Shown here: positions 8,802 through 40,470 of the stretch, in pieces
Numbering within the stretch: the stretch's first letter is position 1
Layout: every line of letters begins with the position of its first letter
Notes under the pieces: generated by a model
The model's database searches: none
Seen by the model: the letters and a program-made list of their open reading frames with translations, nothing else
Told to the model about the DNA's origin: nothing
Position numbers and translations under genes: made by a program
DNA from: Candidatus Nanopelagicales bacterium
GTDB taxonomy: Bacteria; Actinomycetota; Actinomycetes; Nanopelagicales; Nanopelagicaceae
DNA: 45,034 nucleotides
Direction of reading: 5' to 3'
Assembly (NCBI GenBank): GCA_030834095.1
Contig: JAURGA010000008.1
Location: 1 to 45,034 of the forward strand

Positions 8802-9059
8802 ATGCCTAAGTCACCATTGCGCAAAAAAGAGAAGGCCTATATTCCGGAGGCGGTTGCTCAAGCAAAGCCGGTTCCGACTGAGAGCCCAAAGTGGTTAGTC
8901 CCAGCGATGATTTCTGCCTTCATCGGCGGATTAATCTGGATCGTAATTTTCTACATCTCGGCAACTGCCTACCCAATCCCAAATATCGGGGCCTGGAATA
9001 TGGTCGTTGGATTTGGATTCATAGCGGTAGGTTTCTCGCTCGCTACCCGCTGGCGCTAA
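8802..9059 (+). CDS. crgA: Cell division protein CrgA
   Basis: CrgA is a small actinobacterial membrane protein of the divisome that interacts with FtsZ, FtsI and FtsQ in mycobacteria and influences Z-ring assembly and wall synthesis. The 85-residue product has a charged cytoplasmic N terminus (MPKSPLRKKEKAY) and two membrane helices, about residues 30-52 (VPAMISAFIGGLIWIVIFYI) and 64-82. The hairpin topology, the PKWLVP lead-in and the GFxxATRWR end are typical of the family. It is divergent from pabA and close to pknB, the same arrangement as in Mycobacterium and Streptomyces. Confidence 0.93.
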   Translation: MPKSPLRKKEKAYIPEAVAQAKPVPTESPKWLVPAMISAFIGGLIWIVIFYISATAYPIPNIGAWNMVVGFGFIAVGFSLATRWR

Positions 9060-9068
9060 ATACCGCTT

Positions 9069-9086
9069 AATTACAAGCTTGTAATT
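9069..9086. promoter_or_regulatory. 18-bp perfect palindrome AATTACAAGCTTGTAATT
   Basis: A perfect 18-bp inverted repeat lies 10 bp after the crgA stop and about 80 bp before the phoP-like promoter. It lacks a GC-rich stem or following T tract, so it is not a good intrinsic terminator. It has the shape of an operator for a dimeric regulator, but no cognate regulator can be named. Confidence 0.45.
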
Positions 9087-9094
9087 CTCCACAC

Positions 9095-9116
9095 GGTGGA
9101 TAAAGGCTGTGGATAA
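9095..9116 (+). promoter_or_regulatory. Two DnaA-box-like sequences upstream of the phoP-like gene
   Basis: TGTGGATAA at 9108-9116 matches the DnaA box (complement TTATCCACA) exactly, and GGTGGATAA at 9095-9103 differs at one base. Both are in the same orientation, 13 bp apart. They lie 32-53 bp upstream of a candidate -10 (TACGCT, 9148-9153) for the response-regulator gene. Confidence 0.5.
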
Positions 9117-16305: not shown

Positions 16306-16799
16306 TGGAAAATTTTGCAGACCTGCTTGAATCAAATAAAGAGTATGCGAGTGCCTTTAAATCAATGGGCTTAAGCGGTGAAGCGATAAAAGGTTTAGCA
16401 ATTGTCACATGCATGGATTCGAGAATCGACCCACTTCATATTGTTGGAATGGAAGCTGGCGATGCCAAAATATTGCGAAATGCTGGCGCCCGAGTTACCG
16501 AGGATGTCCTTCGCACATTAGTTCTTGCAACCCACTTGCTAGGCGTGAATCGAATTTTAGTTATGCCACACACAGATTGCAGAATGGCAACCGGTGAAGA
16601 ACACGAAATACATGCTGCGATTTTAGAGAAATCTGGTGTCGACACTAGAGGAATCGAAATTCGTACAGTTAAAGATCAGATGAAGGCACTTGTTACTGAT
16701 ATTCAGAGAATTGAAAGCTATCCCTTACTTGCAAAAAATATAAAGGTTATGGGCGCTATTTATGATGTTGATACTGGAAAACTGGCTCCATTAATTTAA
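16305..16799 (+). CDS. Beta-class carbonic anhydrase, short form
   Basis: It interconverts CO2 and bicarbonate using zinc. The 164-residue protein has the diagnostic CMDSR (Cys36, Asp38, Arg40) and HTDC (His89, Cys92) zinc-ligand motifs and RNAGARVTEDVLRTLVLATHLLG. This size and pattern match the small mycobacterial enzyme Rv1284-type rather than the longer CynT type. Bicarbonate supply supports carboxylases in fatty-acid and anaplerotic metabolism. It overlaps the upstream exporter by 1 bp and the convergent dnaB by 4 bp. Confidence 0.93.
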   Translation: MENFADLLESNKEYASAFKSMGLSGEAIKGLAIVTCMDSRIDPLHIVGMEAGDAKILRNAGARVTEDVLRTLVLATHLLGVNRILVMPHTDCRMATGEEHEIHAAILEKSGVDTRGIEIRTVKDQMKALVTDIQRIESYPLLAKNIKVMGAIYDVDTGKLAPLI

Positions 16800-18208
16800 T
16801 TATCCTTTACAAAGCTCTCAGAATTTTGAGAGTAACTTGGTGCCATATCGCTAAATCTTGCAAAGTGTAGTTGCGCACTTACAGTGATTGTTCGGGTTGG
16901 TCCATTACGGTGCTTTGCAATAATCAAATCTGCTTCACCAGATCGGTTCTGGCCGTCATACATATCGTCACGGTGGAGAAGAATTACAACGTCAGCATCT
17001 TGTTCGATAGAACCAGATTCACGCAAGTCCGAGAGCATTGGCTTCTTATCGGCACGCTGTTCTGGTGAACGGTTTAACTGTGAAATCGCGATAACTGGAA
17101 CATCTAGTTCCTTCGCCAATAGCTTTAGATTTCTTGAGAATTCAGATACTTCTTGTTGACGGTTCTCAACGCGCTTTCCAGCTGTCATCAACTGCAAATA
17201 ATCGATAACAATTAACTTCAAACCATGACGCTGCTTTAAGCGGCGAGCCTTCGCGCGGATCTCCATCAGTGAGAGGTTTGGTGAATCATCAATAAAAAGC
17301 GGAGCTTGTGAAATTTCGCCCATACGTTTTGCGAGACGGCCCCACTCTTCATCTGTAAGTGCGCCAGAGCGAATATTGTTTAGAGCAACTCTGGCTTCGG
17401 CTGAGAGCATACGCATTGTGATTTCAGAGCGACTCATTTCAAGTGAGAAAATAACTGCTGGGTCGCCATTGTGAATCGATGCATAGCGTGCGATATCAAG
17501 ACCGAGAGTTGATTTACCAACAGCGGGACGCGCAGCTAGAACAATCATGTTTCCTGGGTGTAAGCCATTTGTCAGAGTATCGAGATCTTTAAATCCAGTC
17601 TTAACACCTTCGCCTTTAACGCCATTTGAAATCGCTTCAATTTCATCCAGTGCTGCTGGAAGTAGTTCAGATAATTGAATGTAATCCTCGGTTGTGCGAT
17701 GTTCGGTAACTTGAAAAATTTCTGCTGATGCTTGATCAACCGCATCATCAACCTCGCCTTCGCCGGAATATCCAAGTTGAACAATCTTTGTTCCAGCTTC
17801 AACTAGGCGACGCATGATTGCATGGTCGCGAACAATCTTCGCGTAATAACCAGCATTAGCCGCAGTAGGAACCGAATTAATAAGTGTGTGTAGATAAGGT
17901 GCGCCACCAGCACGAGCGATGTCGCCACGCTTTGTTAATTCAGCTGCAACAGTTACTGGATCAGCGGGTTCGCCACGACCATACAAATCAAGAATTGCAT
18001 CGTAAATCAATTCGTGTGCTGGTCGATAGAAATCGCGTTCGCGAATAATTTCGACTACATCTGCAATTGATTCTTTACTAAGCAACATTCCACCAAGAAC
18101 ACCTTGCTCGGCAATTAAATCTTGTGGTGGCGTACGTTCAAATTCAACTGTTGCTGGAATCCGATTGTTGGAGTTGTTTCCGCGGTTGGGGAGTTCTGCG
18201 ATGCTCAT
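16796..18208 (-). CDS. dnaB: Replicative DNA helicase DnaB
   Basis: This is the hexameric fork helicase. The 470-residue protein has the N-terminal primase-interaction domain (about 25-130, PQDLIAEQGVLGGMLLS) and the RecA-like domain with Walker A AARPAVGKSTLGLD, Walker B LIVIDYLQLM, SREVSEFSR-like QEVSEFSRNLKLLAKEL, and the H4 region LSDLRESGSIEQDADVVI. No intein is present. GGGAGG lies 8 bp before the ATG. The gene follows rplI in the classic rpsF-ssb-rpsR-rplI-dnaB order, but a strong terminator and an array of DnaA-box-like sequences separate it from rplI, implying its own promoter. DciA, the probable helicase loader, is encoded downstream of recF. Confidence 0.97.
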   Translation of the reverse strand: MSIAELPNRGNNSNNRIPATVEFERTPPQDLIAEQGVLGGMLLSKESIADVVEIIRERDFYRPAHELIYDAILDLYGRGEPADPVTVAAELTKRGDIARAGGAPYLHTLINSVPTAANAGYYAKIVRDHAIMRRLVEAGTKIVQLGYSGEGEVDDAVDQASAEIFQVTEHRTTEDYIQLSELLPAALDEIEAISNGVKGEGVKTGFKDLDTLTNGLHPGNMIVLAARPAVGKSTLGLDIARYASIHNGDPAVIFSLEMSRSEITMRMLSAEARVALNNIRSGALTDEEWGRLAKRMGEISQAPLFIDDSPNLSLMEIRAKARRLKQRHGLKLIVIDYLQLMTAGKRVENRQQEVSEFSRNLKLLAKELDVPVIAISQLNRSPEQRADKKPMLSDLRESGSIEQDADVVILLHRDDMYDGQNRSGEADLIIAKHRNGPTRTITVSAQLHFARFSDMAPSYSQNSESFVKDN

Positions 18209-18301
18209 TGATAAAGCCTCCCAAAGACCACTGACAGATAGTTGCCAACGTGCGTAATTTAATGAAGTTGGGGTGAGAGGTGTTAGAAAGTCCGAGATCG
18301 A

Positions 18302-18378
18302 TGTGCGCGAGCATGTGGAGAAGCTGGGAATTGAGGTGGATAACTGGTGGACAGGATGTGCATAACAGGTGGAGAAGT
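18302..18378 (+). promoter_or_regulatory. Array of DnaA-box-like repeats with about 11-bp phasing upstream of dnaB
   Basis: In the rplI-dnaB gap, seven successive units begin at 18302, 18314, 18325, 18335, 18346, 18357 and 18368, all in the same orientation (steps 12, 11, 10, 11, 11, 11). Examples are TGTGGAGAAGC, GGTGGATAACT, GGTGGACAGGA, TGTGCATAACA and GGTGGAGAAGT. They approximate the DnaA box TGTGGATAA with one to several mismatches; the 18325 unit is weak. A further TGTGGGTAA lies at 18422-18430. The array sits about 95-170 bp upstream of the dnaB start, so it may regulate dnaB or titrate DnaA. The rest of the gap (18209-18480) holds a possible dnaB -10 and Shine-Dalgarno. Confidence 0.55.
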
Positions 18379-18480
18379 GCGAGGGTCAACCCTCTTTTAC
18401 GCTCAAATTTGTGTTCAACCCTGTGGGTAAAGATTTATTTCTTCATCTCAATATCTAAGAATATTAAAGAGCATTAAATT

Positions 18481-18513
18481 AAAAAGGCCCGCCTCTTTCG
18501 AGACGGGCCTTTA
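18481..18513 (-). terminator. Intrinsic terminator after rplI
   Basis: On the minus strand AAAGGCCCGTCTC-GAAA-GAGGCGGGCCTTT folds into a 13-bp hairpin with a GAAA loop and one G-T pair, followed by TTAATTTAAT. It lies 13 bp after the rplI stop and separates the ribosomal-protein operon from dnaB. It is the clearest intrinsic terminator in the window. Confidence 0.9.
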
Positions 18514-18526
18514 AATTTTGGAGCTA

Positions 18527-18973
18527 TTAAATAGCTTCAACCGAAATGTTTACGTTGGCAGAAACTTGACCTTGAAGTGAAACCTTCGCGGTGTATTTTC
18601 CAAGCTTCTTGATATGTCCGGCAACCTTTACGCGGTGGCGATCGATATCGAGACCAGTAGCGGCTTTGATGCCTGCTGTGATGTCTTTATCTGTCACTGA
18701 ACCGAATAGAACTCCAGTTGCTCCAGCCTTAGATTTAACAACAATCTCGGCCTTCTCAAGTGTTTCCTTAATCTCTCTTGCGTGATCAAGGTCGCGAATT
18801 TCGCGAGCGCTACGAGCACGACGGATTCCTTCAATCTGCTTTTCGCCACCAAGGCTCCAAGCGATTGCATTGCCGCGAGGCAATAGGAAGTTGCGAGCAA
18901 AACCATCTTTAACGGTTACGACATCGCCAGCTTGGCCTAGACCTGATACTTCACGAGTAAGAATAAGTTTCAT
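18527..18973 (-). CDS. rplI: 50S ribosomal protein L9
   Basis: This 148-residue large-subunit protein binds 23S rRNA near the L1 stalk base. The N-terminal domain shows MKLILTREVSGLGQAGDVVTVKDGFARNFLLPRGNA-type features (residues 1-36), followed by the long connecting helix and a C-terminal domain (about 70-148) with GVLFGSVTDKDI. AGGGGA precedes the ATG at a normal distance. It is last in the rpsF-ssb-rpsR-rplI operon, 12 bp after rpsR, and is followed by a strong intrinsic terminator. Confidence 0.98.
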   Translation of the reverse strand: MKLILTREVSGLGQAGDVVTVKDGFARNFLLPRGNAIAWSLGGEKQIEGIRRARSAREIRDLDHAREIKETLEKAEIVVKSKAGATGVLFGSVTDKDITAGIKAATGLDIDRHRVKVAGHIKKLGKYTAKVSLQGQVSANVNISVEAI

Positions 18974-38526: not shown

Positions 38527-38720
38527 TGTTGATAAGGGTCAAACTCAGGACCGTTGCCCATAGGCGGAAAGGGAGATGCCTGGGCCCAAGAGATATTTGT
38601 GGATAACACCTTGCAATTTCTTGGAATTGCCCCTACTTTCGCCCTCTATCCACAGAAATTGGAGCCCAAAAGGCTCAAGTTTTACTTTAGACCACAGCTT
38701 GTGGATAACCCTGTGGATAT
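38527..38720. promoter_or_regulatory. DnaA-box cluster in the rpmH-dnaA gap (oriC-associated)
   Basis: The 335-bp gap holds TGTGGATAA exactly at 38598-38606 and 38700-38708. One-mismatch forms are TGTTGATAA (38527-38535), CTATCCACA (38646-38654, opposite orientation) and TGTGGATAT (38712-38720). Dense boxes next to the dnaA promoter suggest autoregulation and may be part of a bipartite origin. An AT-rich stretch (38717-38750) follows, with AAGGGG-type ribosome site before dnaA. No coding gene was seen in the gap. Confidence 0.75.
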
Positions 38721-40170: not shown

Positions 40171-40187
40171 GCGGTAATTACATAACT

Positions 40188-40408
40188 TGTGCAGAAAGTT
40201 GTCCCCTTCTTGTGGATAAATTGGGGATAACTGTGGAAAAAGGGGGGTTGGGTTGGGATTTAGGTGTCGGCAGCGAGAGTTAGCCTTGGTTATCAACAGG
40301 TTTCCCACAGCTTAAAAAGGAAGAGGTTTGAGTGTGGTGACCAGGGGTTTTGTTAAATATCCACAGGTTTAAACTCTAGTTACTACGAATATTTAATTAA
40401 ATAGAAAA
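40188..40408. other. oriC: Origin of chromosome replication (oriC) in the dnaA-dnaN gap
   Basis: The 300-bp gap 40171-40470 carries boxes in one orientation at 40188 (TGTGCAGAA, weak), 40211 (TGTGGATAA, exact), 40222 (TGGGGATAA) and 40232 (TGTGGAAAA), spaced about 10-11 bp or multiples. Boxes in the other orientation occur at 40290 (TTATCAACA), 40301 (TTTCCCACA, weak) and 40357 (ATATCCACA). An AT-rich segment AATATTTAATTAAATAG (40388-40404) beyond the last box is a plausible unwinding element. This is the standard actinobacterial origin position. The rest of the gap up to 40470 holds only the dnaN ribosome site (AGGGAAGGA). Confidence 0.88.
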
Positions 40409-40470
40409 GGTTGGGGAGCGGCGAACCTGTGCGGGTTGGCTATCTCGCTTTTAAAGGGAAGGATGATGGA

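Follow-up and report, generated by a model that had tools for sequence, protein, structure and literature searches.

A helically phased array of DnaA boxes upstream of dnaB in Nanopelagicales and other Actinomycetes

DnaA is the initiator of replication, and DnaB is the helicase that it loads. Five regions of the Mycobacterium tuberculosis chromosome are bound by DnaA in IDAP-seq, one of them upstream of dnaB, and ChIP-seq in M. smegmatis found DnaA at homologous regions, the one upstream of dnaB included; in a single M. tuberculosis variant, DnaA I282T, reduced binding at dnaB goes with low dnaB expression (Hicks et al., 2020; PMC7738170). The dnaB gene of Caulobacter crescentus has also been placed in the DnaA regulon, on the strength of predicted upstream DnaA boxes and DnaA-dependent expression (Hottes, 2005, as cited in PMC8203912). 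An earlier, sequence-only reading of the DNA analysed here had known of no described element of this kind at dnaB; for DnaA action at this gene, the mycobacterial and Caulobacter reports overturn that statement. Two other systems are close in layout or content. At oriC, phased low-affinity arrays have been modelled as weak boxes of one orientation that extend from a strong box (Rozgaja 2011 model, in PMC4285127), and DnaA-box clusters in Streptomyces coelicolor and Bacillus subtilis repress untimely initiation, analogous to datA of E. coli (PMC5742627).

The rplI-dnaB gap and its array

The window, by which we mean the whole stretch of 45,034 nucleotides that we analysed, belongs to a 1.36 Mb genome of the Nanopelagicales, the acI freshwater actinobacteria. 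It carries dnaA and dnaN with oriC between them, and, 22 kb from these, rplI and dnaB, both on the minus strand and separated by a gap of 318 bp in which an array of DnaA-box-like units lies upstream of dnaB. The features of the two loci are as follows.

16796..18208, minus strand: dnaB, replicative DNA helicase (NCBIfam TIGR00665 DnaB, 536 bits)
18229..18236, minus strand: conserved motif TGTCAGTG, 28 nt before dnaB starts
18302..18310, minus strand: unit 1, TCGCGCACA, in register, no DnaA box by the matrix (-2.9 bits)
18314..18322, minus strand: DnaA box TTCTCCACA (12.5 bits)
18325..18333, minus strand: unit 3, degenerate, in register (-0.6 bits)
18335..18343, minus strand: DnaA box TTATCCACC (9.7 bits)
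18346..18354, minus strand: weak DnaA box CTGTCCACC (4.4 bits)
18357..18365, minus strand: DnaA box TTATGCACA (6.6 bits)
18368..18376, minus strand: DnaA box TTCTCCACC (7.5 bits)
18422..18430, minus strand: anchor box TTACCCACA, the strongest in the gap (14.5 bits)
18483..18512, minus strand: rplI intrinsic terminator, a 13-bp stem with a T-rich tail
18527..18973, minus strand: rplI, ribosomal protein L9 (NCBIfam TIGR00158, 112 bits)
40171..40470, no strand assigned: dnaA-dnaN gap, oriC, with phased boxes at 40211, 40222 and 40232 and DnaA-trio-like GTTACTACGAATA near 40379

The rplI terminator sits between rplI transcription on one side and the array and dnaB on the other, and because it closes rplI, dnaB presumably has a promoter of its own in the remaining gap. 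A consensus scan of the rplI-dnaB gap found no sigma-70 consensus promoter. An RNA element was ruled out as an explanation of the gap, which gave no Rfam match.

Boxes were scored with a matrix trained on the dnaA-dnaN gaps of 29 relatives, with the window's own genome and the dnaB locus excluded; it converged on TTATCCACA, TTACCCACA and TTATCCCCA. The sequence-only reading had described seven DnaA-box-like units in one orientation, and their sequence and steps of 12, 11, 10, 11, 11 and 11 bp (unit starts 18302, 18314, 18325, 18335, 18346, 18357 and 18368) are as it gave them; all can be read as TTATCCACA-like on the minus strand, that of dnaB. By the matrix, five of the seven are box-like, at 4.4-12.5 bits, whereas those at 18302 and 18325 score below zero and keep only the register. 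That reading had also missed the anchor box at 18422-18430, which stands 54 bp, or five turns, upstream of 18368; the relatives, too, have an anchor-type box where the array ends towards rplI. Within the window's array the boxes are moderate to weak. The near relatives L003 and L004 carry a good box, CTATCCCCA (11.4 bits), where the window has its degenerate unit at 18325, and alignment shows the box at 18346..18354 to fall in an 11-bp unit that both of them lack. The 11- and 10-bp steps of the oriC boxes, to which the array had been likened, were confirmed at 40211, 40222 and 40232.

Both the box content of the gap (p = 3e-4) and that of the 77-bp array (p = 1e-4) exceed chance in 10,000 dinucleotide shuffles. 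Phasing was assessed by searching for the best chain of seven boxes at steps of 10-12 bp, scored with the oriC-derived matrix. The top chain in the window is the dnaB array, at 37.6 bits, with oriC second at 36.0, and the maximum elsewhere in the window, outside the array and the oriC/dnaA region, is -20.3. Across 140 kb of the same genome the maximum is -16.5; shuffles reach 8.6 (5,000 shuffles of the gap) and 0.0 (30 shuffles of the whole window). Strong boxes are rare in this genome, as judged by pattern searches and the 140 kb of background stretches: canonical TTATCCACA has five copies genome-wide, four of them in the window but all four outside the dnaB gap.

Conservation in the clade and across the class

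We then compared 48 non-redundant rplI-dnaB gaps from Nanopelagicales. Every one of the 48 is enriched in boxes (each p<0.04), with a mean of 5.6 per gap against 1.0 in shuffles, and 244 boxes lie in the plus orientation relative to dnaB against 13 in the minus orientation. Distances between box pairs peak at about 11-12, 21-24, 32-33, 43-44, 53-55 and 64-67, with almost none between. The resulting helical register reaches R=0.77 at a period of 10.85 bp, where the null gives at most 0.20; a stricter subset of 39 sequences gives the same result, and the clade's own oriC has the same 10.85-bp period. Between relatives, the boxes and their spacing are conserved while the sequence separating them is not. 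In alignments, closely related species differ by insertions of 10-11 bp between boxes, and the array thus appears to grow and shrink in approximately whole helical turns. An oriC-like, helically phased array at dnaB, far from the origin, is what the sequence-only reading had proposed, and this is supported. Two of the outcomes that it had named as refuting did not occur: the array is kept in relatives, and its phasing far exceeds that of shuffled controls in both chain score and R.

Because the sequences of one clade are not independent of one another, a class-wide sample is more telling. Among 40 genomes drawn from 30 other Actinomycetes families, outside Nanopelagicales, 32 show box enrichment upstream of dnaB (p<=0.05) and eight show no significant enrichment. 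The register across this sample is R=0.72-0.77 at 11.0 bp, with a null maximum of 0.34-0.39. A box cluster upstream of dnaB, in the same register, is therefore shared at an orthologous position across Actinomycetes, in most of the families sampled.

Further box clusters and conserved motifs

In a blind ranking of 310-bp box clusters, the top four in the window were the dnaA-dnaN gap, the rpmH-dnaA gap, the rplI-dnaB gap and the gap behind crgA (8802-9059; CrgA identified by NCBIfam). Rv0011c is crgA, and the four clusters thus correspond to four of the five regions that DnaA binds in mycobacteria. The common sites at oriC, dnaA, dnaB and crgA suggest an ancient DnaA regulon in the class.

The rpmH-dnaA gap (38598-38720, boxes at 38598, 38646, 38700 and 38712) holds the second strongest cluster of the window, which likely serves dnaA autoregulation. 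Behind crgA, at 9067-9116, a palindrome, TTAATTACA-AGCT-TGTAATT, overlaps an inverted pair of boxes (9085 and 9095), with a third box at 9108. Every Nanopelagicales locus located, in 27 relatives, has DnaA boxes behind crgA; the palindrome and inverted pair recur in most of them, and some have a direct pair. The DnaA site between Rv0010c and Rv0011c of M. tuberculosis, where two DnaA boxes are reported to form a palindrome, is in the same place. A further small cluster, G000:C42:18728-18780 (L114, L132; TTATCAACA, TTATACACA and TTATCCCCA; 47.9 bits), was met only because that stretch had been chosen for its strong box, and is possibly another regulated site. Elsewhere in the window, at 938-1160, a small SRP RNA on the minus strand adjoins a tRNA gene on the plus strand.

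The dnaB gaps also share motifs other than boxes. The TGTCAGTG motif keeps its place in nearly all Nanopelagicales: searched for as TGTC[AG]G, it occurs 28-30 nt before the dnaB start in 46 of the 48 gaps, and Streptomyces has a similar motif, TTGTCAGTG, upstream of dnaB. TGTCAGTG may belong to the promoter or the leader of dnaB; read as a -35 hexamer, it would put the start of transcription inside dnaB, and the Streptomyces spacing misfits as well. From the TGTCAG motif to the nearest box is 20-165 bp, varying widely between species. In 25 of the 48 gaps (for example L024, L034 and L050) the first box has an inverted repeat close by, TCTCA-N-TGAGA or T(A/G)AGA; repeats of this type are absent from oriC gaps.

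A second element, TGACCTGC, is found class-wide in 15 of 39 oriC gaps (1.0 in shuffles) and in 14 of 40 dnaB upstream regions (0.9 in shuffles); the window's own dnaB gap lacks it. In oriC it sits beside the unwinding-side box, usually about 12 bp before the box next to the CCCTACTACTA trios and at a near-constant distance (for example L217, L219, L058 and L063). Its genome-wide specificity is only partial: of eight genomes, G002 has no match to TGACCWGCNNTTT and the other seven have 2-5 each, some of these at oriC or dnaB and others elsewhere. In the literature searched, no paper links TGACCTGC with oriC.

Proposed function and relation to known systems

The gap thus combines boxes, register, orientation and conservation, and it shows no DnaA-trio signature of unwinding. 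We propose, with a probability of about 0.66, that the array is a platform for a DnaA filament that controls dnaB, probably by activation. In the Nanopelagicales host we infer DnaA binding, a cooperative filament and the sign of regulation in the following way. DnaA, probably ATP-DnaA, would first bind the near-consensus anchor box at 18422 and from there occupy the weak phased boxes cooperatively along one face of the helix, as at oriC arrays, where this layout allows a DnaA filament to grow (PMC4285127). The filament would most likely activate transcription of dnaB; activation is favoured because reduced binding goes with reduced dnaB expression in the M. tuberculosis variant (PMC7738170). 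Such an array could make helicase supply depend on how much active initiator is present and so couple two limiting steps of replication start.

The strongest alternative, which we regard as rather unlikely, is that the array is chiefly a sink for DnaA near the origin that sets initiation timing, its position at dnaB being incidental. Its many boxes would be duplicated early, since they lie only 22 kb from oriC, the variable distance between boxes and TGTCAG fits such a role, and the S. coelicolor and B. subtilis clusters give it precedent (PMC5742627). A pure sink, however, need not be kept between the rplI terminator and the dnaB start across some 30 families, many weak units are poorly suited to titration at low DnaA, and in the one M. 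tuberculosis variant dnaB expression falls along with DnaA binding at the site (PMC7738170). We favour control of dnaB, as the more probable role, over titration.

That some other protein sensitive to helical phase, such as a nucleoid protein or a response regulator, reads the TGTGGATAA-like units, with DnaA not the main ligand, seems improbable. The gaps do hold the further conserved motifs TCTCA-N-TGAGA, TGACCTGC and TGTCAGTG, but the unit matches a DnaA matrix derived from oriC, and DnaA itself binds the locus in two mycobacteria (PMC7738170).

Still less probable is that the array serves as a second, auxiliary origin or as one part of a split oriC. The phasing and orientation bias are those of oriC, and TGACCTGC is common to oriC and the dnaB gap in other lineages; against this, a DnaA-trio-like sequence is present in 24 of 30 oriC gaps and in one of 48 dnaB gaps, rplI and dnaB run co-oriented through the site, the skew of the window has no switch there, and the dnaA-dnaN gap carries a full origin architecture. 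We rejected this explanation on the missing trio sequence, the gene orientation and the skew.

A chance origin, whether from a GTGG-rich stretch that happens to have an 11-bp repeat or from a tandem repeat that has decayed and has no link to DnaA, was rejected as hardly credible: two of the seven units are no boxes and TTATCCACC-type units are sub-consensus, but shuffles, the genome background, the cross-species register and the conservation of boxes and spacing over unconserved intervening sequence all speak against it.

A broader version of dnaB control by a DnaA filament is held more tentatively: across Actinomycetes, an oriC-like nucleoprotein module, consisting of a unidirectional phased array that gains and loses boxes by nearly whole turns and, in many lineages, of TGACCTGC, may possibly control the helicase gene. 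If so, origin and helicase promoter would both respond at the same time to assembly of the initiator filament. Streptomyces, mycobacteria and the acI freshwater bacteria all belong to the class concerned, and a strict register outside oriC offers a clean test of DnaA filament formation on promoter DNA.

Of the described systems, the dnaB sites of M. tuberculosis and M. smegmatis share the gene neighbourhood seen here and are places where DnaA binding has been shown; they differ by an extra gene, Rv0057 in M. tuberculosis, and the passages of PMC7738170 consulted do not describe box phasing. The dnaB gene of C. crescentus has predicted upstream boxes, but belongs to a distant phylum, and the review consulted (PMC8203912) does not describe a phased array. 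The clusters of S. coelicolor and B. subtilis are likewise boxes outside oriC, but are defined by their effects on initiation timing. In layout the dnaB array resembles the low-affinity arrays of oriC, from which it differs in having no DnaA-trio signature and in lying in a presumed promoter region. The window array is the predicted acI counterpart of the known mycobacterial DnaA site, and the new part would be the strict class-wide helical architecture, of which the literature searched gave no description.
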